Assembly (NCBI RefSeq): GCF_021730305.1
Contig: NZ_CP032674.1
Span: 729,001 to 793,000 of the forward strand
Reading direction: 5' to 3'
From: Xanthobacter sp. YC-JY1
GTDB lineage: Bacteria; Pseudomonadota; Alphaproteobacteria; Rhizobiales; Xanthobacteraceae
Length of the DNA stretch: 64,000 nucleotides
Shown: positions 32,798 through 45,534 of the stretch, one piece after another
How the letters are laid out: each line of letters begins with the position of its first letter
How positions within the stretch are numbered: the stretch's first letter is position 1
Notes under the pieces: model-generated
Database searches by the model: none
Seen by the model: only the letters and a program-made list of their open reading frames with translations
Told to the model about the DNA's origin: nothing
Program-made: the position numbers and the translations under genes

Positions 32798-32901
32798 GTC
32801 ATCCCCCGCCTTGTGCGGGGGATCCACCCCACCGCTCGCGCCGAGCGGGAAGGCATCGCGCAAGCGGCACCGTGGATGCCCCGGACGAGCCGGGGCATGA
32901 C
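32798..32901. repeat. Two-armed palindromic intergenic repeat, copy 4
   Basis: The left arm gtcatcccccgccttgtgcg and the right arm gtggatgccccggacgagcc (ending gcatgac at 32901) show a few differences from the copies at 2984 and 27839. It lies between the convergent VanX-like gene and the last gene of the formate/selenium operon. Confidence 0.8.
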
Positions 32902-32936
32902 GGCCTCAAAACGCTGCAGCCGGCCCATGCCAAGCC

Positions 32937-33308
32937 TCAGTTCGGCGCGATCTCCTCCACCTTCAGCCGGCGGCCGAAGGTGTCGAAGAAATCGCCTTCG
33001 TTCAGCACCAGCCGGTTCTCGCGGATGCGCTGCTCCAGCGCGCGCAGGCGGCCGCGCGCCTCGCCATTCTCCAGCGGGCCGCCATCCTCCGTCTGGGCGA
33101 AGAAGGCGGCGCCGTCCCACGCCTGCCGCGAGCCCGCGAACAGGGTGATCATGCCGGCCCAGTCCACCTCGTCGCCGATGATGTTGAGGAAGGTGGAGGC
33201 GAGCGGCTTCACCTCTGGCTCGGCAATGCGCACCAGCACCACCAGCGCGGTGAAGCCGCCATGGTCGGCGAAGGTGGCGGCGAGCCAGTCGTCGAAATCG
33301 GTGGCCAT
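32937..33308 (-). CDS. Unknown protein, last gene of the fdh-sel operon
   Basis: The 123-residue soluble protein starts MATDFDDWLAATFADHGGFTAL and contains EVKPLASTFLNIIGDEVDWAGMITLFAGSRQAWDGAAFF and a charged C-terminal half (ARGRLRALEQRIRENRLVLNEGDFFDTFGRRLKVEEIAP). There are no Cys motifs, signal or membrane segments. It begins six bases after the preceding unknown gene, so it is very likely cotranscribed with selB. I do not recognise the family; a role in formate dehydrogenase or selenium handling is only suggested by position. Confidence 0.78.
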   Translation of the reverse strand: MATDFDDWLAATFADHGGFTALVVLVRIAEPEVKPLASTFLNIIGDEVDWAGMITLFAGSRQAWDGAAFFAQTEDGGPLENGEARGRLRALEQRIRENRLVLNEGDFFDTFGRRLKVEEIAPN

Positions 33309-33314
33309 GGGCTT

Positions 33315-33809
33315 TCAGAAGTCCACGAGGGGCGTGTCGGGAAGATAGTGCTCAAACAGGTACCAGAAGGCGCTCTGCCGCGTCGTGGCGTACCAGTCCT
33401 CGAACGCCGCGAGGGCGGTCTGCGGCGCCGTCTCGCTCTCCATCTCGAACAGCGCCACAGCGACCGGGGCGAAGCGCACGAGCACCTCGGCGCGGGCCTC
33501 GCTGTCGTCGGACCAGCCGAGCCGGGCGCGCAGCAGCGCCTGCCCGGCGGCAACCGCCATCTCGGCATCGCCGATGCCGTCGAGGGCGGTGGCGAGGGAT
33601 CGCATCAGGTCGGCCCGGCGCCAGGCGTGGGCCCGATCGCGCGCCAGTTCCTCGGTGCGGCGGGCGGCCTCGGCGCGATAGGCCGTCTCGGCCACATCGG
33701 CCGCGACCTTCGCGGCATCGAGGCGCGCCAGCACGGCGGCGCGGGCCTCACGGGCAGGGTCGGGCGCGGCTTCGGGGGGCGGGGCGGGGAGGTCGGTCTC
33801 GGGGCTCAT
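33315..33809 (-). CDS. Unknown helical protein coupled to selB
   Basis: The 164-residue protein is Ala/Glu/Arg-rich with a proline-rich start and long predicted helices (AREARAAVLARLDAAKVAADVAETAYRAEAARR and onward). It ends with an aromatic-rich segment (FEDWYATTRQSAFWYLFEHYLP). Its ATG (33807-33809) overlaps the TGA of selB (33806-33808) as ATGA, so its translation is probably coupled to selB. No known domain. The C-terminal aromatic part may be a binding surface. Confidence 0.8.
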   Translation of the reverse strand: MSPETDLPAPPPEAAPDPAREARAAVLARLDAAKVAADVAETAYRAEAARRTEELARDRAHAWRRADLMRSLATALDGIGDAEMAVAAGQALLRARLGWSDDSEARAEVLVRFAPVAVALFEMESETAPQTALAAFEDWYATTRQSAFWYLFEHYLPDTPLVDF

Positions 33810-35941
33810 CGTCCCTTCCCGTAGCTGCGGGGGCGCGCATCGGGCGCGGGCTGCTTCGGCGCAGCGGAATTTGGCGCAATGGAATTTGGCGGAAGAGAGT
33901 GGGAGTCGAACCCACCAAGGACCGGCTCGCGGCCCCTCCCGGATTTGAAGTCCGGACGCCCCACCAGGGACGCTTCTCTTCCCCGCGACGGCGCCGCCGC
34001 GGTGATTTCAGGCGCATCGTCCGCCGCTCCGGCGAACAGGTCCAGCCGGAACGGATTGATGCGCCTCAGATCGCCGCGACGCAAGGTGAGGCCGTGGCGG
34101 TCGAAGAATTCGAGGATCTGGATCGCCACCTTGCGCCCGTTCTGCACTTCGTCGCGGAAGGCGGCGGCGGTGAACTCGTCCTTCATGCGGGGGCCGGAAA
34201 GGCGGGTGATGATCTCCACCATCTCCGACACCACCGGGCGCAGGAAGAAGTGGTCGTGGGCCACCTCGTCCACCCGGCCCATGCGGCCGAGCAGCTTCAT
34301 CAGGCGGCGCACCTCCGGCTCCGGCACGGCGAGGAGGCCGGCGATGTCGCGCACGCGGGGCGGGCGGAAGCGCTCCTCGCCCGTGAGCAGCGGCTTGATG
34401 CGCGCCCACAGCGCCTCGTCGGCGGCGGCGAGCTTCACGGAGAAATCCGCGCGGCGCACCCAGGCGCCCTCCTGCCGGATTGTGCCGGCGGGCAAAGCGG
34501 CGAGCGCGGCGAGGAAGGCGGCGGACGGCAGGCGCGGCTCCAGCATCATGCGCAGCCGCTCGCGGCCGAGGCCCGGCATGTCCGGGTTCTCCGCATGGAA
34601 GGCGTCGAGCACGGCCATCACGCTGGCGCAGAAGGTGGCCAGCGTCGCCCGGGTCAGCGCCAGCGTGGTGGCGCCCGCGGCGAGGCGGGCGAGATCGAGC
34701 CGCTGCGCCAGCGCCTCCACCTCTTCGGCGGAGAGCGCCCGGTCGCGGGCGAAGGCGTCGAGATCGACGAAATGCGGCGGCACGGCCAGAAGCCCCGCCA
34801 AAGCCGCGGCGGGATCGCGCTGCGCCAGCGCATCGAGCTGGGCGATGCGCTCGGGCGTGCGGCGCTTGCGGCGCGGTCCGCGCAGATCGAGGAAGCGGCC
34901 GCCGCCGATGGTGCGCTGGGCCGAGGTGTCGCGGATGACGAAGCGGTCGCCCGCCGCCGCCGCGATGGGCGCCTCCAGCACCAGTTGCACCTTGCCGGTG
35001 CCACCGGGCGCGATGGCATCGCCGAGCAGCACGAGGCGCGCCCCCACCTCACGCGCGGCATGGTGCAGGCGCACCGGCAGCCACTGGGCGATGGGGCGGG
35101 GCTCGGTGGCCAGAACCTTCAGCTCGGCGTCGATATGGTCGGCGGGGGCGTGCAGCGCCGGGTCCAGCACCACGTCGCCACGGGAAATGGCATCCTTGGA
35201 GATGGCCTCGCCGGCGAGGTTGATCCCGCAGCGGTCGCCGGCGACGCCGGTCTCGGCCACGCGGTCCTGCGCGCGGATGGAGCGGACGCGGGCGGAAAGG
35301 CCGGAGGGGCTCACCGTGACCCGGTCGCCCACCTTCACCGCGCCGGACAGCACCGTGCCCGTCACCACCGTTCCGGCGCCGGACAGGGTGAAGCTGCGGT
35401 CCACGGCGAGGCGGAACCGCCCGCCGCCGGCCCGCCGGCCCAACGTGCGCGCGGCCTCCACCAGCATGTCGCGCAGGGCATCCACCCCGTCGCCCCGCGC
35501 TGCCGCCACGGGCAGGATGGGGGCGCCTGCCAAGCCGGTGGGGGCGAGGAGGGCGGTGATCTCGGCTTCCACCGCAGCGAGGCGGTCGGCATCGGCGAGG
35601 TCGGACTTGGTGAGGGCGACCACGCCCTTGTCGATGCCGAGCAGGTCCAGGATGGCGAGGTGCTCGCGGGTCTGCGGCATCACACCGTCATCGGCGGCCA
35701 CCACAAGCAGCGCGAAATCGATGCCCCCCGCGCCGGAGAGCATGGTGTGCACGAACTTCTCGTGCCCGGGCACGTCCACGAAACCCAGCACCTCGTCCCC
35801 CACCGGGAGATAGGCGAAGCCGAGGTCGATGGAGATGCCGCGGGCCTTCTCTTCCTTCAGGCGGTCGGTATCGACACCGGTGAGCGCACGCACCAGCGTG
35901 GTCTTGCCATGGTCGATATGTCCGGCCGTGCCGATGATCAC
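33806..35941 (-). CDS. selB: Selenocysteine-specific elongation factor SelB, reading through selC
   Basis: SelB is the EF-Tu-like GTPase that binds Sec-tRNA and the SECIS hairpin and inserts selenocysteine at UGA. Visible are G1 [19 protein letters not shown], the switch region [16 protein letters not shown]3 [14 protein letters not shown]4 ALTKSDLAD, a domain III segment ([10 protein letters not shown]) and C-terminal winged helices ending [21 protein letters not shown]. The start is GTG 35941, directly after the preceding TAG, with GGGGGAG upstream. At 711 residues it is about 100 longer than E. coli SelB. The family core ends near residue 637, yet no stop follows and the frame runs through the selenocysteine tRNA gene (residues about 654-685) to overlap the next gene by ATGA. 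Confidence 0.93.
33887..33982 (-). tRNA. selC: tRNA-Sec (anticodon UCA), inside the selB frame
   Basis: Read on the minus strand it starts GGAAGAGA and ends TCTCTTCC-G-CCA, an eight-pair acceptor stem as required for bacterial tRNA-Sec. The anticodon loop ACTTCAAAT with UCA sits on a GC stem (CCGGA/TCCGG). The long variable arm and the T arm GTGGGTTCGACTCCCAC match the family. It is 96 bases with encoded CCA. It reads selenocysteine at UGA after SelA converts the attached serine. It lies fully within the open 3' extension of selB on the same strand, so its precursor is also selB mRNA. Confidence 0.95.
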
Positions 35942-37279
35942 CTAGGGCAGCTCCCCCAGCGGAATGGCGGCGCGGCGCTGGGCGGCGGCGGCTTCTTCCG
36001 GGCTCAGCGTGGCGCTGACCGCGTCGAAGAAGCGGTCAGCGAGGGCGCTGTGGCCGGCGCGGGCGCGCAGCAGCCAGGCGAAGGCGGCGATCTTGTCGTG
36101 GGGTACGCCGGCACCGAGATGGTAGGCGGCGCCGAGCATGGCCTGCCCGTCCGCGTCGCCCGCCTCGGCGCCCTTGCGCCACCAGCGCGCGGCCTCCACC
36201 GGATCGCGATCCGTGCCGAGCGCATTGTGGGCGATCATGCCCAGGCGCGTCATGGAGGAGCCGACGCCCTGCTCGGCCGCGGCCAACGCCCAGCGGCGGG
36301 CCTCGGTGGTGTCGGGCGGCATCACCTCGCCCTCCAGCAGCATCCAGCTCAGCATGTCCTGCGCGGGGGCGTCGCCGTCCTCGGCCGCGGCGCGGTACAG
36401 CTCGGCGGCGCGGGCATAGTCCTGCGCCACGCCCTGGCCCTTGAAATAGAGGGTCGCGAGGTTGCGCCGGCCCACCGGATCGCCGCCCTCGGCGGCCAGC
36501 TCTAGCCAGCGGCGGGCGAGGTCGAGGTCCTGGTCGACGCCGAGGCCGTCCACGAAGCAGGCGCCGATATTGTTCTGGGCGCGGGCATTGCCGGCGCGGG
36601 CCAGCGGCTCCCAGATGTTGAGCGCGGTCTCGTACTGGCCGGCGGTGGCCGCCGTCAGCGCCTCGGCCATCAGCTCCTCGGGGGAGCGGGTGTCGGCCAC
36701 CGGCTCTTCCGGCGCTTCCTCGGTGAAGGCGGGTTCGGTGTAGGAAACCGCGGCATAGCTCGCCTCGGCCACGTCGGTCTCGACGAAATCGGGCGCCACG
36801 ACCTCGGGTGCCGCGACATGCGGCGCGGGTTCGGGCGCGGGGGCGTCGACGGCGGGCGCGTCCGACGTGCTGGGCGCGCGGGCGAACACGATCTCCTCGA
36901 AATTCAGCTCCACCGCCGGGGCTTCCGGCTCGCGCGCGGGCGGCTCGTGGGCGACCGGCTCCGGCTCGGAGACGGGGGCGAAGGGATTGTCCTCGCGCAT
37001 GCGTTCGCCAAGGCGGGGCCGGCGCGGCGCGGGGGCGACGGGACGTTCCTCGGCCGCGGGGCGCGTGGGGGCAAGGCCGCTGGCGATGTCGCCGAGCAGG
37101 GCGTCGAGGTCCACCTCGGCCTCGCTCACCGGGCGGCGCTCGCTGGCGCGCTGCAGGCGGGGCATGGGCGGATGCACATGGGGCGGCCGGGGCGGCGCGC
37201 GATCCTGCGGCGCATCGGTCGGCGCTTCCGGCTCGTCCGGTCCCCCGCCCTTGCCCTTCAGTCGGTCAAGCCAGCTCAT
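35942..37279 (-). CDS. Sel1-repeat (SLR/TPR-like) protein between selA and selB
   Basis: The 445-residue protein has a disordered Pro/Ala/Glu-rich first half (residues about 10-215). At least four Sel1-like repeats of about 36 residues follow ([76 protein letters not shown]). Such repeats make alpha-solenoids for protein binding. There is no signal peptide or membrane helix. It overlaps the end of selA by 14 bases and ends directly at the selB GTG, so it belongs to the operon. The name Sel1 comes from a nematode gene and has nothing to do with selenium; here a scaffold role in Sec or formate-dehydrogenase assembly is only an inference. Confidence 0.85.
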
Positions 37280-38696
37280 GTGCCCCCTCCAAAGCGGTCA
37301 CGGACGCGACAAGCGCCGCTTCGTCATCAAGGCACCTCACATCCAGCACCAGCGCCTGATCGTCAATCCGTCCGATGACCGGAACCGGCAACCGGCGCAT
37401 GGCATCGGCCAACCGGCCGATGGTGCCGCCGCTGCCGTCGCGGGCGCGGATGGCGAGGCCCACGCCCTCAAGCGTCTCCAGCGGCAGCGCCCCGGAGCCG
37501 ATCTGGCTGCGGCACGGCACGCTCTCTACGGTGAAACGAGCACCAAGGATGCGCTGAAGATGCGGCGCCAGTCGGGCAGCTTGGGCGGCGAGATCCTCGC
37601 GCGACCGGGTGAGGTAACGAAGTGTGGGAAGCCGCGCTGCGAGGCGATCGGGGTCGCGGTAGAGCCGCAGGGTCGCCTCGATGGCGGCGAGGCGCACCTT
37701 GTCCACGCGCAGCGCCCGCTTCATGGGGTTCTTGTTGATGCGGGCGATGAGATCGCGCCGCCCCACGATGAAGCCGGCCTGCGGCCCGCCGAGCAGCTTG
37801 TCGCCGGAGAAGGTCACGATGTCCGCGCCCTCCGCCAGCGCCTCCCGCACGGTGGGCTCGTGCACGAGGCCGTAGCGGGAGAGGTCGGCGAGGGTGCCGG
37901 AGCCGAGGTCGTTGACGAGGGGCACGCCGCCGGCACGGGCGATCTCGGCGAGGTCGCGGGGGGGCACCTCGGCGGTGAAGCCCTCGATGCGGTAATTGGA
38001 GGTGTGGACCTTCAGGATCACCCCGGTCTCGGGCGCGATGGCGTCGCGATAGTCGCGCGGATGGGTGCGGTTGGTGGTGCCCACCTCCGCCAGCTCGGCG
38101 CCGGCCCGGCGCATGATCTCCGGCATGCGGAAGGCGCCGCCGATCTCGATCAGCTCGCCGCGCGAGACCAGCGCCGGCTTTCCCGGCGACAGGGTGTTGA
38201 GCACGATGAGGACGGCGGCGGCGTTGTTGTTCACCAGCGTCGCGTCCTCGGCGCCGGTGAGTTCGCAGATGAGGCCGCGCACATGGTCGTCGCGCTCGCC
38301 GCGTCGGCCGCCGTCGAGGTCGTATTCCAGCGACACGGCGTTGCGCATAGCGCGGGTAGCGGCCTCGATGGCCTCCTCGGGGAAGATGGCGCGGCCGAGA
38401 TTGGTGTGCAGCACCGTGCCGGTGAGATTGAACACCGGCTTCAGGCTGGGGGCGGCGGCGACATCGAGGCGGGCGAGGGCGGCGGCGGCGATCTCCTCGG
38501 GCGTCGCGGGGGCGCCGGCACCGGCCTTGAGCGCGGCGCGGCGCTCGTCGAGGGCGTCGCGCACCGCCTGCGTCGCCGCCTGCCGGCCATGGCGCTCCAC
38601 GGCGGCGCGGGCGGCCTCCGCCTTCAGCACCTGATCCACGGAGGGAAGCAGGCGCAAGGGCGGGGCGGGGGAGAGGGCCGCCGGTGCGTTCGCCAT
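37266..38696 (-). CDS. selA: L-seryl-tRNA(Sec) selenium transferase
   Basis: SelA is a PLP enzyme that converts seryl-tRNA(Sec) to selenocysteyl-tRNA(Sec) with selenophosphate. The 476-residue protein shows LLPSVDQVLK at the N terminus, NLTGTVLHTNLGRA, NNNAAAVLIVLNTLS, GTTNRTHPRDYRDAI, VNDLGSGTLADL and the PLP lysine in FSGDKLLGGPQAG (Lys 300). ATG 38696 is preferred; it has GAGGGCGAG just upstream and gives the family N terminus, though the frame extends 41 codons into fdhE. It is ten bases after the fdhE stop. Confidence 0.96.
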   Translation of the reverse strand: MANAPAALSPAPPLRLLPSVDQVLKAEAARAAVERHGRQAATQAVRDALDERRAALKAGAGAPATPEEIAAAALARLDVAAAPSLKPVFNLTGTVLHTNLGRAIFPEEAIEAATRAMRNAVSLEYDLDGGRRGERDDHVRGLICELTGAEDATLVNNNAAAVLIVLNTLSPGKPALVSRGELIEIGGAFRMPEIMRRAGAELAEVGTTNRTHPRDYRDAIAPETGVILKVHTSNYRIEGFTAEVPPRDLAEIARAGGVPLVNDLGSGTLADLSRYGLVHEPTVREALAEGADIVTFSGDKLLGGPQAGFIVGRRDLIARINKNPMKRALRVDKVRLAAIEATLRLYRDPDRLAARLPTLRYLTRSREDLAAQAARLAPHLQRILGARFTVESVPCRSQIGSGALPLETLEGVGLAIRARDGSGGTIGRLADAMRRLPVPVIGRIDDQALVLDVRCLDDEAALVASVTALEGAHELA

Positions 38697-38706
38697 CTCG
38701 CCGCCC

Positions 38707-39639
38707 TCAATAGCCGAGGAGGAAGGGATTGAAGGCGGCGCGCCGATACGGGCCATCCTTCTGCTTGATGTCGAGGGCGAGGCTCGCCACGTCGTCGGCC
38801 ACCGGATCGAGGCCGTCATCCTGGGTGAGGTAGAACACCTTGGAATAAGCGTGGCAGGTGTCGCAGGTCTCGGCCTTCACCGCGCCGTTGCCGCCCTCCA
38901 TTTCCTGATAGCCGATGCCGGCGGTGGAGCCGCAGGCGGTGCAGCGCACCCGCACATAGTTCCAGAGCGTGCCGCACAGGGCGCAGGCGCAATAGCGGGC
39001 GCCATGGGAGGTCGGCCAGTTGACGATGAGGCTGCCCACCGGCGGCCCGCCGCAGGTGGGGCACACGCCGTCGCCCACCGGAACGAGCCTGGCGGCATCG
39101 AGCTGGGACGCGAGGCGGGCGAAATGGGCTTCCAGCGCCGCCGCCACATAGAGGTGCTCGGCCAAAGCTTCCTCGGGGATGGAGGAGGCGAGCACGTTGC
39201 GGATCATCTCGCCGCGCGCCACGTCGGAGGCCATGCGCACCCGCTCCAGCGCGGTGCGGGCGGCCTCGGGCTGCTCGATCTTGGTCGCTTCCGCCAGCGC
39301 CCGCTCGAACAGGGTGTCGAAGGCGGCGTCGGTGGTGAAATGGCTGCGGTCGAGGGGCGGCATCTCGTTGGCGCGGGCGCGCTCCACCTGCGCCGCCTCC
39401 ACCGGCTCGGGCGCGGGCGTCGCGGCGATGGCGGCGTGCTGCGCCTCGCAGAGCCCGGCGAGGAAGGTGAGATAGGGGGCGAGGGGATTGTTCTGCGCCA
39501 GATGCCGGAACCGCGCCGCGCGCCGCGCGAACAGGATCGAAGGGTCCGGCAGATAGGCGAAGGTCGGCGCCGTCACGCCCTCCAGCACGGAGGGATCGGG
39601 AATCGGGGGCGCCGAACTGGGGCCGAAGGTACGCGACAT
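38707..39639 (-). CDS. fdhE: Formate dehydrogenase accessory protein FdhE
   Basis: FdhE is a cytosolic rubredoxin-like protein needed to mature respiratory formate dehydrogenases before Tat export. The 310-residue protein has a helical N-terminal half (FRHLAQNNPLAPYLTFLAGLCEAQ) and the expected zinc or iron CxxC sites: CPTCGG, CALCGTLW, RCTACGS and ETCDTCHAY. ATG 39639 starts the family sequence MSRTFGPS. It is 90 bases downstream of fdhI and ten bases upstream of selA. Confidence 0.94.
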   Translation of the reverse strand: MSRTFGPSSAPPIPDPSVLEGVTAPTFAYLPDPSILFARRAARFRHLAQNNPLAPYLTFLAGLCEAQHAAIAATPAPEPVEAAQVERARANEMPPLDRSHFTTDAAFDTLFERALAEATKIEQPEAARTALERVRMASDVARGEMIRNVLASSIPEEALAEHLYVAAALEAHFARLASQLDAARLVPVGDGVCPTCGGPPVGSLIVNWPTSHGARYCACALCGTLWNYVRVRCTACGSTAGIGYQEMEGGNGAVKAETCDTCHAYSKVFYLTQDDGLDPVADDVASLALDIKQKDGPYRRAAFNPFLLGY

Positions 39640-41398: not shown

Positions 41399-44300
41399 TT
41401 ACGCCACCGGCCCGGTGGAGGGCTCGATGTTGACGAGGAACGCCTTGAATTCCGGCGTCTCGATGTTCGCGTCACCCACGAACGGGGTGAGCACGTTGGC
41501 CGGGAAGCCCTTCTTGGCGGCGCCGACGAAGCCCCAGTGGATGGGGATGCCGACGATGTGCACGGGCTTGCCGTCCACCATCAGGGGACGGATGCGCTTG
41601 GTCACGTAGGCCTTGGCGAAGACCGAGCCCCGCTTCGACCACACGCGCACCCAGCCGGCGTTCTGGATCGACTTCTCCTTCGCCAGTTGCTCGGAGATCT
41701 CCACAAAGAATTCGGGCTGGAGCACCGAATTCACGTGGTTGTTCTTCGTCCAGTAATGGAAGTGCTCGGTGAGCCGGTAGGAGGTCGCCGCATAGGGGAA
41801 CTCCTTCGACGCCACGTCCGCGAACTGGGCGAAGTCGTCCTTGAACACGCGCGCCACCGGGTTGCCCCGCACCTTGGGGGCGATCAGGTTGGCGACCGGG
41901 CTCTCGAACGGCTCGTAATGCACCGGGAACGGTCCATCCCGCATCATGCCCCGGGTGAACAGGCGGGAGACGCCTTCCGGGTTCATGATGAACGGGCCGA
42001 CATCCTGCGGCTTGGCGGTGGGGGCGATGTCGGGCACGTCGTAGCCCGTCCACTTGGCCCCGTCCCACCAGATCAGCTTGCGGGTGTCGTCCCACGGCTT
42101 GCCGTCGATGTTGCAGGAGGCGCGATTGTAGATGATGCGCCGGTTGGCCGGCCACGCGAACGACCACTTCAAGTAGGCGCCGGTGTCGTCGGGATCGGAA
42201 TTGTCCCGGCGCGCCATCATGTTGCCCGCCTCGGTGTAGCAGCCGGAATAGATCCAGCAGCCCGCCGCGGTGGAGCCGTCGTCGCGCAGCACGCCGAATG
42301 TCGGCACCTGCTTGCCCGCCTCCAGGACCTTCTTGGTGGGGTCGTTGGGGTCGAACACGTCCGAGACCACGTAGCCGTTGAGCTCCTTGGCAAGCTCGTC
42401 GGGCGAGGGCTCGTGCGGGTCCTTGTAGTTCCAGGTGAGGTTGACGATCGGATCGGGGAACGCGCCGCCGTCCTTCTTGTACATCTCCTTCAGGCGCAGA
42501 TGGATCTGCGCCATGATGTAGGTGTCGGGCTTGGCATCGCCCGGAGGGGTGCCGGCGGCCCAGTGCCATTGCAGCCAGCGGCCCGAATTCACCAGCGAGC
42601 CGTTGTCCTCGGCAAAGCAGGTGGTGGGCAGCTGGATGACCTCCGTCTGGATCTTGGACGGATCGGCCTGGTTGTAGACGCCGTGGTTTTCCCAGAAGCG
42701 CGCGGTCTCGGTCTCCAGCGGATCCATGATCACGAGGAGCTTGAGCTTGGCGAGCGCCTCCGCGAGCTTCGCCTTGTTGGGGAAGGCCTGCAGCGGGTTG
42801 AAGCCCTGGCAGAAGTAGATGTTCATCTTCCCCTGCTTCATCAGCTCGAACGCGCGCAGCACGTCATAGGCCGGCACGTCGAGCTTCGGCAGGTAGTCGT
42901 AGGCCCAATTGTTGTCCGCCGTCGCCGACGCACCCCACATGGCCTTCTGGAAGGAGACGAAGAACTTCTTGTAGTTCTGCCAGTAACTCATCTGGTTGGG
43001 ACGCAGCGGCTTGAAACCGCGCGTCGACATGTAGGCGTTGAAGTCCGGCTCCTTCTCCGTCGGGATCGTGAGATAGCCCGGGATCAGGTTGGACATCAGG
43101 CCGATGTCGGTGAGGCCCTGGATGTTGGAATGCCCGCGCAGGGCGTTCATGCCGCCGCCGCGCACGCCGATATTGCCGAGGAGCAGCTGGATCATCGCCA
43201 TGCAGCGGATGTTCTGCGAGCCCTTCGAGTGCTGGGTCCAGCCGAGCGCGTACATGGAGGTCATCGTCTTGGTGGGCGACGAGCACTCCGCCATCATGGA
43301 CGCCACCTTCAGGAACTTGTCCTTGGGCGTGCCCGTGATGCGTTCGACCAGCTCCGGCGTGTAGACGGAGACGTGCTGCTTCAGAAGGTTGAAGACGCAG
43401 CGGGGATGCTGGAGGGTGTTGTCCACGACCGCATAGCCGTCGGGGCCGATCTCGTAGTCCCAGGTGGAGCGGTTGTAGTCCCGCTTCATCTCGTCATAGC
43501 CCGTGAACAGGCCGTCCTGGTACCCGAAGCCTTCCTTGACGATGTAGCCGACGTTGGTGAACGCCTTCACATAGTCCCACTGAATCTTGTCGTTCTGGAT
43601 CAGGTAGTTGATGACGCCGAGCAGGAAGGCGATGTCGGTGCCTTGCCGGATCGGGGCGTAATAGTCCGCCACCGCGGCCGAGCGCGTGAAGCGCGGGTCC
43701 ACGACAACGAGCTTGGCGCCACGGGTGGCCTTCGCCTCCGTGACCCACTTGAATCCGCACGGGTGCGCTTCAGCGGCATTGCCGCCCATGATGATGACCA
43801 GATCCGTGTTCTTGATATCGGTCCACGAATTGGTCATCGCGCCACGGCCAAAAGTTGGGCCCAAACTGGACACCGTGGGGCCGTGTCAGACGCGCGCCTG
43901 ATTGTCGAAAGCCAGAATTCCGGTTGAGCGCACCACCTTGTAGGTGGCGAACGCGGTTTCGTTGGTGGTGGCGGAGGCGGCGAGGAAGCCGGCGGTGAGC
44001 CAGCGGTTCACCGTCACGCCGTCATTGTTCTTGGCGATGAAGTTGGCGTCGCGGTCCGCCTTCATGGCCTTGGCGATCTTGTCGAGCGCCTCGTCCCAGG
44101 AAATCTTCTCGAACTTGTCGGAGCCCGCGCGCCGGATCATGGGCTGCTTGAGGCGCTGCTCGGACTTGACGATGTCGAGCAGGGCCGCGCCCTTCGGGCA
44201 GAGCGTGCCGCGATTGGTGGGGTGGTCGGTGTCACCCTCGATATGGGTGATGTCCGCCTTCTCGCCCTTGGCGAGATTGCCCTTGGAGAAGATGAGGATG

Positions 44301-44485
44301 CCGCAGGCCACCGAGCAGTAGGTGCAGGTGTTGCGCACCTCGGTGGTGTTGACGAGGCGGAATGGCTTGATGGTGGAGGCCAGGGCCTCCTCGATGGGAC
44401 CGAATCCCAACGCGCCCAGCGTCGTTCCCGCCACGCCCGCGCCCGCCGTTTTCAAAAACTGGCGCCGCGAGAGCTCCATGTTCAT
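41399..44485 (-). CDS. fdhG: Formate dehydrogenase alpha subunit, selenocysteine-containing
   Basis: This catalytic molybdopterin subunit oxidises formate to CO2 on the periplasmic side. The complete protein is 1028 residues, like E. coli FdnG (1015). It has a Tat signal ([15 protein letters not shown]), an N-terminal 4Fe-4S set (CTYCSVACG through TLCPKG), and selenocysteine at residue 200 encoded by TGA at 43886-43888 in the context NQARV-U-HGPTV. The stop at 41399 is the real end. The frame does not shift at the TGA, so this is one gene, not two. A SECIS hairpin follows the TGA at the standard distance. ATG 44485 has GGAGG nine bases upstream. It is the first gene of the operon. Confidence 0.96.
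43857..43885 (-). promoter_or_regulatory. Bacterial SECIS element of fdhG
   Basis: On the mRNA strand the UGA is followed by 11 bases (CACGGCCCCAC) and then a hairpin: GG-(U)-GUCC, loop AGUUU, GGGC-CC at 43874-43857. A bulged U on the 5' side and GU in the loop are the features SelB recognises in E. coli fdhF. The 11-base distance from UGA to the apical stem is the same as in fdhF. Confidence 0.85.
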
Positions 44486-44814
44486 CGAAGGAAGCCTCCG
44501 ACCTTTCGTGCCCCGACCGGGGACGGTTTCGGACGGCCTCGGGGCCGCTCCGGGAGCTGGATCACCCAGCGTGACCGGACGGTATTTTGGAACTGGAATG
44601 ATGTCAATTTTCGCCCGCGCAACTCCGCGTGTTTGAACGAAAATCGCCTTCTTGTCGCATGTTGCGATGCGGCACGCGTGCGCCTGCCCGCTACCGCTTC
44701 TGACGTAACGGCATATGGTTTTGCGGCGCCTTCCTGTTGTGCGCTGCCGAAGCATGGCTGACATCACGGAAACGAGCGTTGACCGCGCTTGCAACCCTGA
44801 CGCAGAGTGACCGC
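44486..44814. other. Divergent intergenic region between fdhG and the tlpA-like gene
   Basis: About 330 bases include the fdhG promoter at 44579-44607 and some AT-richer DNA (44585-44720). The start of the TlpA-like gene is not certain and could extend into this region (TTG 44737). I see no sigma-54 element, riboswitch-like fold or further gene. Confidence 0.45.
44579..44607 (-). promoter_or_regulatory. Probable sigma-70-type promoter of the fdh-sel operon
   Basis: On the minus strand TTGACA (44607-44602) is followed by exactly 17 bases and TACCGT (44584-44579). The -35 is perfect and the -10 is weak, which would suit activator control. Transcription would start near 44572, leaving a leader of about 86 bases before fdhG. 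Confidence 0.5.
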
Positions 44815-45534
44815 GTGAAGGTCGGTTTGGCTCCCGCGGGTCGGGGCGCACAATCTATCCAGCCGGATATAACATTTCCCGGACCGCAGCGTCGCTGGCG
44901 GGGCCGAGGACGCGTATCCGCGCGATCCCGGACGGTCGGGTCTCTGCCTCAGCGCGGCGTGCTGGGCGCGATGGCGCTCGCCCTCGTGCTTGCGGCTGGC
45001 CCCCTGCTCATCGCACCCGCCATCGCGGCGGAGGAGGAGCGCGCTCCGCCGGGCCTTCTCGCCGCCGTCGAAGGCCGCCCCGTTGCCCCCGCGCTCTCGC
45101 TCGGCGCCCTCGATGGCGCGCCGGTGGCCCTTGCCGCGGACGCGCCGCCGACCATCGTCCATTTCTTCGCCACCTGGTGCGCGCCCTGCCGCACCGAGCT
45201 TCCCGCCCTCGCCGATTTCGCCCGTCGCAGCGGCGTGCGGGTGCTGCTGGTGGACGTGGCGGAGCCCGCCGACCGCATCCGCCGCTTCTTCGCCGAGGGA
45301 ACGGCCGGCGCCGCGCCCGGCCCCGTTCTGCTCGATCAGAACCGCGCGGCGGCGCGGGGCTGGGGTGTCAGCCTGCTGCCGGCGAGCTTCGTGGTGATCT
45401 CCGGCCGGCTCGCCCTCGCTTATGAGGGCGAGGTGGACTGGGCCGATCCCAAAACCCACGCCGCGATCGCCGCCGCGGCGGCGCCCCCGCAAAAAAACCA
45501 ACCAAAAGAAGCCCAGGGAGAACAGACCCGATGA
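44815..45534 (+). CDS. TlpA-like thioredoxin-fold protein
   Basis: The exported protein has a hydrophobic signal (LGAMALALVLAAGPLLIAP) preceded by a basic stretch and the redox motif FFATWCAPCRTELPAL. Further family blocks are VRVLLVDVAEP and a cis-Pro region GVSLLPASFVVI. Its role is probably periplasmic thiol reduction or cytochrome or cofactor maturation. The start is uncertain: GTG 44815 is used, GTG 44959 or TTG 44737 are alternatives. It overlaps the next gene by ATGA (45531-45534). The divergent position beside fdhG suggests a link to formate dehydrogenase, but this is an inference. Confidence 0.8.
   Translation: MKVGLAPAGRGAQSIQPDITFPGPQRRWRGRGRVSARSRTVGSLPQRGVLGAMALALVLAAGPLLIAPAIAAEEERAPPGLLAAVEGRPVAPALSLGALDGAPVALAADAPPTIVHFFATWCAPCRTELPALADFARRSGVRVLLVDVAEPADRIRRFFAEGTAGAAPGPVLLDQNRAAARGWGVSLLPASFVVISGRLALAYEGEVDWADPKTHAAIAAAAAPPQKNQPKEAQGEQTR

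Follow-up and report, generated by a model that had tools for sequence, protein, structure and literature searches.

Introduction

The nesting of selC, the gene for tRNA-Sec, within the reading frame of selB has already been published for Alphaproteobacteria (Mukai 2021, PMC8124441). In that description the tRNA-Sec of most nested cases is 96 or 93 nt long, and in many of them the selB stop codon overlaps the start of a downstream ORF; partial selB-selC overlaps were likewise reported from Gammaproteobacteria and Nitrospirae, together with losses. Mukai 2021 (PMC8124441) also put forward the hypotheses that processing of the tRNA destroys the selB message, which would make SelB and tRNA-Sec alternative products, and that the same processing represses SelB along with the downstream ORFs. 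The nested arrangement is repeated in two reviews, of 2022 (PMC9312934) and 2026 (PMC13188914).

A tRNA within a coding frame is of general interest because one RNA cannot serve both uses simultaneously, and nested selB-selC allows a clean test of how translation and tRNA processing compete. A sequence-only reading of the locus studied here had not known the arrangement to be described; on this point it had been anticipated, as both the arrangement and the same either/or model have been in print since 2021 (PMC8124441). In the text of that paper we found neither spacer lengths nor substitution patterns put to a test, and among the matches listed in the literature on tRNA genes overlapping bacterial protein genes no title came nearer to the subject. 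Here we test quantitatively how far frame and peptide are constrained, and we follow what becomes of the frame in loci that lack the downstream ORFs.

Results

Anatomy of the locus

The window, by which we mean the whole 64,000-nucleotide stretch of DNA that was analysed, contains one tRNA gene according to ARAGORN, a tRNA-SeC at 33887-33982 on the minus strand with the anticodon tca. This selC is 96 nt long with an encoded CCA, and it matches Rfam RF01852 at 33891-33982 with 78.8 bits against a gathering score of 47. It lies in frame with selB, the gene for the selenocysteine-specific elongation factor (33806..35941, minus strand), an ORF of 711 aa that is stop-free through selC. The SelB family TIGR00475 scores 422.5 bits against a curated cut-off of 242.25, and the SelB domains of Pfam and NCBIfam reach to about residue 627. 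When the SelB core is taken to residue 637, a spacer of 48 nt (33983..34030, minus strand) leads from the core into selC, whose segment of the selB frame spells GREASLV...SHSLPP, and a tail of 26 codons plus TGA follows on the 3' side of selC (33806..33886, minus strand).

The sequence-only reading had therefore described the anatomy correctly. Indeed, ARAGORN, Rfam and the ORFs agree that selC at 33887-33982 is wholly within the open selB frame at 33806-35941 on the same (minus) strand, and the claimed SelB tail of about 74 residues, 32 of them spelled by the tRNA, is recovered by counting codons past residue 637 (16 in the spacer, 32 in selC and 26 after it). Similarly, the claimed overlap with the next gene by ATGA was found by ORF analysis at 33806..33809 (minus strand), where the TGA of selB shares the ATG of a 164-aa ORF (33315..33809, minus strand), hereafter ORF-A. 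An SD-like AAGG is positioned in the selB tail directly 5' of the ORF-A start. The predicted local mRNA fold contains the selC cloverleaf, and the overall fold stability of the local RNA does not stand out from that of shuffles (z -0.49).

The next gene after ORF-A is ORF-B (32937..33308, minus strand; 123 aa). Each represents a conserved family that no Pfam or NCBIfam model matches over cut-off: ORF-A has no match in either database, the same being true of the ORF-A of four relatives, and for ORF-B there was nothing over cut-off in Pfam (best E 0.24) and nothing at E<=0.1 in NCBIfam. The structure predicted for ORF-A is helical, with a mean pLDDT of 92.3 and one helix of 58 residues, and a Foldseek search of this model against the PDB returned nothing at E<=0.001. 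On the other side, a Sel1-repeat protein of 445 aa (35942..37279, minus strand; Pfam) is encoded directly upstream of selB, with selA next to it on its own upstream side (37266..38819, minus strand; PF03841, E 8.7e-162). Farther upstream, two ORFs are linked by an in-frame UGA (41399..44851, minus strand, ORF start unrefined; UGA at 43886-43888 in the context RVUHGPT), and a SECIS element is found at 43833..43891 on the minus strand (Rfam RF01989, 79.9 bits). We take this pair of ORFs with its SECIS element to be, probably, the formate dehydrogenase alpha subunit, a selenoprotein.

Compared with the nested selBC genes of Mukai 2021 (PMC8124441), the window locus shows no substantive difference. 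In both, the whole of selC lies in selB on the same strand and measures 96 nt, a length that is a multiple of three; the translation of the tRNA segment has Gly first and Pro last; the stop codon of selB and the start codon of the next ORF overlap; and a Sel1-like gene, selA and formate dehydrogenase genes are close by. Judged by position, ORF-A would correspond to ORF1 or ORF2 of that paper. The overlaps of Gammaproteobacteria and Nitrospirae (PMC8124441) resemble the window in that the selB frame enters selC, but differ in that the stop falls midway through selC or selC is on the opposite strand. The mitochondrion of Armadillidium vulgare, as cited in PMC8124441, offers a tRNA-Lys wholly within cox1 in direct orientation, like selC in selB, although there the genome is mitochondrial and compact and the genes are unrelated. 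The arrangement in the window is real, conserved and previously described.

Relatives of the selB-selC locus

SelB matches were collected from overlapping samples of genomes of the order (30 of 397, E<=1e-60), the family (91 of 248, E<=1e-100) and the class (53 of 385, E<=1e-80), and further loci came from titled records, of which the best 80 of 569 were used; the closest named relative among these best 80 of 569 was Xanthobacter aminoxidans, with 94% SelB identity. The family of the window is presumably Xanthobacteraceae in the wide sense, judging by loci that duplicate titled records. A fragment in the family (G487) and three places in the class (G935, G850 and G747) were left out of the locus set, which held 248 SelB loci, or 235 distinct ones after removal of 13 duplicates. 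We scored selC as adjacent when ARAGORN placed it on the same strand between 60 nt before and 1500 nt after the core end, and arrangement classes were counted with the tRNA 5' end normalised.

By this scoring selC is nested in 104 of the 235 distinct selB loci and 131 are not scored as nested, counts that are not natural frequencies, since the sample is centred on the window. The 92 loci of the window's family comprise 78 nested, 4 partial and 6 stop-before loci, 3 without adjacent selC and 1 at a contig end, while the 143 loci outside the family comprise 26 nested, 8 partial and 67 stop-before loci, 38 without adjacent selC and 4 whose core is incomplete. The last 4 and the locus ending at a contig end are left out of the frame counts below. 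The tRNA is 96 nt long in 102 of the 104 nested loci.

Chance and constraint in the reading frame

Taken alone, the window could owe its open frame to chance in GC-rich DNA: 48% of shuffles of its non-tRNA tail stay open, and the tRNA itself is open in all three frames. Among the other tRNA genes of the genome, 30 of 43 hits were tested and 19 of these fall within some same-strand ORF, with at least 100 codons upstream of the tRNA in 3 cases and at least 200 in none.

The relatives give a different picture. In 103 of the 104 nested loci selC is in frame 0 of selB, and the tRNA is open in any frame in 90 of the 104. The 73 stop-before loci use the three frames 24/25/24 times, and the 28 of them with a tRNA open in all frames do so 14/10/4 times, a mild excess of frame 0. 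Measured from the matched core end, the spacers of nested loci are between -6 and 144 nt long. When changes in spacer length were reconstructed on a SelB tree (FastTree, 231 loci), 54 of the 55 changes among the 104 nested loci were multiples of three, as compared to 19 of 52 among 63 stop-before loci with gaps below 200 nt. With path-disjoint pairs the counts are 36 of 37 for nested and 10 of 29 for stop-before loci.

The nested class is itself defined by openness, and we simulated spacer deletions to gauge the bias that this introduces. The frame remained open through selC after 83% of 1-base and 77% of 2-base deletions, so that the definition of the class alone cannot explain the excess of in-frame changes. 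The share of in-frame changes expected without selection is about 0.385, against which the observed share has a binomial probability of 1e-21, the events being reconstructed and not strictly independent. When openness is not made a condition, 45 of the 52 spacer changes within the family come out in multiples of three. Openness of the frame in relatives is therefore clearly more than chance would produce.

These results bear on a check proposed in the sequence-only reading, namely whether relatives conserve the open frame through selC. In nested relatives it is conserved beyond chance, but 73 of the 189 loci with adjacent selC stop before it. The contrary case that had been named, a stop before selC with no constraint on frame, exists in part, in those 73 loci (24/25/24); the nested lineages do have a frame constraint.

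The sole out-of-frame nested locus, L149, has a spacer change from 42 to 56 nt. Comparison of its DNA with that of three relatives indicates what appears to be a 5-nt duplication that shifts the frame within the final residues of the SelB core, whereas the spacer still leads in frame into both the tRNA and the ATGA. The genome is a single contig, and the tail after the duplication, the selC frame and the ATGA overlap are all intact in this locus, which has either a sequencing error or a true frameshift.

The spacer and tail peptide

Substitutions were compared in 22 close pairs drawn from the 103 frame-0 nested loci. Over the final 200 core codons pN/pS comes to 0.22, whereas the spacer has 0.77, closer to the 0.98 and 0.92 obtained when it is read in the two shifted frames; 5 of the 22 pairs have spacers with differences at >40% of sites, and their ungapped alignment may be wrong. 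The 327 spacer substitutions are spread over codon positions 1, 2 and 3 as 104, 101 and 122, compared with 411, 313 and 1283 in the core. The spacer peptide therefore seems nearly unconstrained, with weak constraint possible, third positions being slightly favoured. In the tRNA segment pN/pS is 1.15, a value uninformative on peptide constraint, since the tRNA itself fixes this sequence. Together, the kept frame and these ratios suggest that selection keeps reading through selC more than it keeps the encoded tail peptide.

Downstream ORFs and nesting

Profiles detect ORF-A and/or ORF-B in 78 of the 104 nested loci. In 56 of the 104, all of them among those 78, an ORF of at least 80 codons starts in overlap with the selB stop, and an SD-like tetramer precedes the overlapped start in 39 of the 56, as compared to 18.6 in shuffles. 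In seven further nested loci (L066, L102, L108, L111, L117, L130 and L138) selB ends one codon past the tRNA 3' end, leaving a 3-nt tail, and there no ORF of at least 80 codons has a start overlapped by the selB stop.

Tabulating nesting against these ORFs requires 700 nt after selC, which retains 86 of the 92 family loci and 185 loci overall. Within the family, selC is nested in 63 of the 64 loci with ORF-A or ORF-B versus 13 of the 22 without (Fisher p 9e-6, kinship ignored), and of the 9 non-nested family loci without the ORFs 3 are distant extra SelB copies (L151, L153 and L155). Independent pairs lean the same way and are not significant (median p 0.25), with, on average, 3.5 of 7 pairs agreeing, 0.4 disagreeing and 3.1 showing no difference. 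An ORF is kept without nesting in 9 of the 185 loci with adjacent selC, and among loci without adjacent selC ORF-A is found in 5 and ORF-B in 8.

In one genus, coded g3, both ORFs are missing from 17 of the 18 loci, and in 6 of the 18 nesting has been lost. Of the 12 spacer changes in this genus 8 are multiples of three and 4 break the frame, versus 36 in-frame changes out of 37 in the rest of the family's main lineage (p 0.01); this in-frame share of 8/12 still exceeds one third (p 0.019). Across the whole sample, neither ORF is present in the DNA covered for 26 of the 104 nested loci, and for one of these (L044) that DNA extends just 80 nt downstream. Spacer changes in these 26 loci are multiples of three in 12 of 12 cases, some of which may be older than the loss of the ORFs.

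Discussion

The comparison narrows the question raised by nested selB-selC genes, in that reading through selC would be what is selected and the resulting spacer peptide would hardly matter. The frame is strictly kept, yet the spacer peptide changes freely. This contrast, drawn from genome comparison, is what we would offer as the new contribution, and in nested lineages selection appears to act on translation through selC.

Our preferred explanation, which we consider probable, is that ribosomes are kept moving through selC, most likely for delivery to the following gene, and that the tail is of minor importance. Ribosomes translating selB would stay in frame across all of selC and stop at the ATGA that is also the ORF-A start; there they would have to reach, or re-initiate at, ORF-A and ORF-B, with the tail serving as a translated linker. 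What selection preserves, as the comparison shows, is continuity of the frame and hardly the spacer residues. Ordinary tRNA processing would cut tRNA-Sec from the same polycistronic transcript, and that copy of selB would be sacrificed. Coupling may be unnecessary, since 39 of the 56 overlapping ORFs are preceded by their own SD-like sites. A bolder version, which we put forward speculatively and regard as rather unlikely, is that ribosome traffic on selB and excision of tRNA-Sec are mutually exclusive on each RNA, so that the rate of selB translation would set the output of tRNA-Sec, SelB, ORF-A and ORF-B, and the strictly kept frame across a linker almost free of sequence constraint would be the footprint of this coupling.

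Delivery of ribosomes through selC is thus the likeliest explanation and the published switch its main rival, and the two are compatible. According to the latter, proposed in PMC8124441 and again in the sequence-only reading, a transcript gives either SelB or tRNA-Sec, the processed selB is a nonstop RNA, and the frame is kept for the sake of SelB repression. We hold this to be a possible but tentative account. It follows from the anatomy, and it fits the frame kept in nested loci without ORF-A or ORF-B, whose 12 in-frame changes out of 12 are left unexplained by coupling to the ORFs unless the changes precede ORF loss. On the other hand, many relatives lack nesting, which has also disappeared from part of g3 (6 of 18 loci), and neither PMC8124441 nor the available text of PMC9312934 and PMC13188914 reports a measurement of such a switch.

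An own promoter for selC within selB, which would leave the overlap without regulatory meaning, seems unlikely. The consensus scan was limited to one promoter type, which leaves room for such a promoter, but it found no promoter-like or terminator-like site in 32900-39200, a weak indication against it (0.2 and 2.1 sites expected in shuffles), and an own promoter would leave the frame constraint unexplained. A tRNA-coded C-terminal tail that is a functional part of SelB, for example in RNA or ribosome binding, is very unlikely: the anticodon loop is read as FKS, FKT or FKAG in 102 of the 104 nested tails, but the tRNA alone constrains that sequence (pN/pS 1.15 in the tRNA segment), 131 of the 235 loci are not scored as nested, and we reject a functional tail peptide on the little amino-acid constraint seen in the spacer (pN/pS 0.77). 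A chance opening in GC-rich DNA, with SelB ending earlier or its tail being neutral read-through, is plausible from the window alone (48% of tail shuffles open, the tRNA open in all three frames) and would suit a barely constrained spacer peptide, but it is rejected as highly improbable on comparison, with one frame in 103 of 104 nested loci and 54 of 55 nested spacer changes in multiples of three versus 19 of 52 in stop-before loci.

Other architectures of the locus also occur among the relatives. For example, one genome of the window's genus (G517) carries two selB-selC units, a nested copy (L039) and a second, distant SelB with 49% identity and selC after its stop (L153). Similarly, 5 of the 12 partial overlaps, all from distant taxa (L023, L171, L194, L215 and L253), have a common stop at selC nucleotides 46-48, the position noted for Dyella and Luteibacter by Mukai 2021 (PMC8124441).
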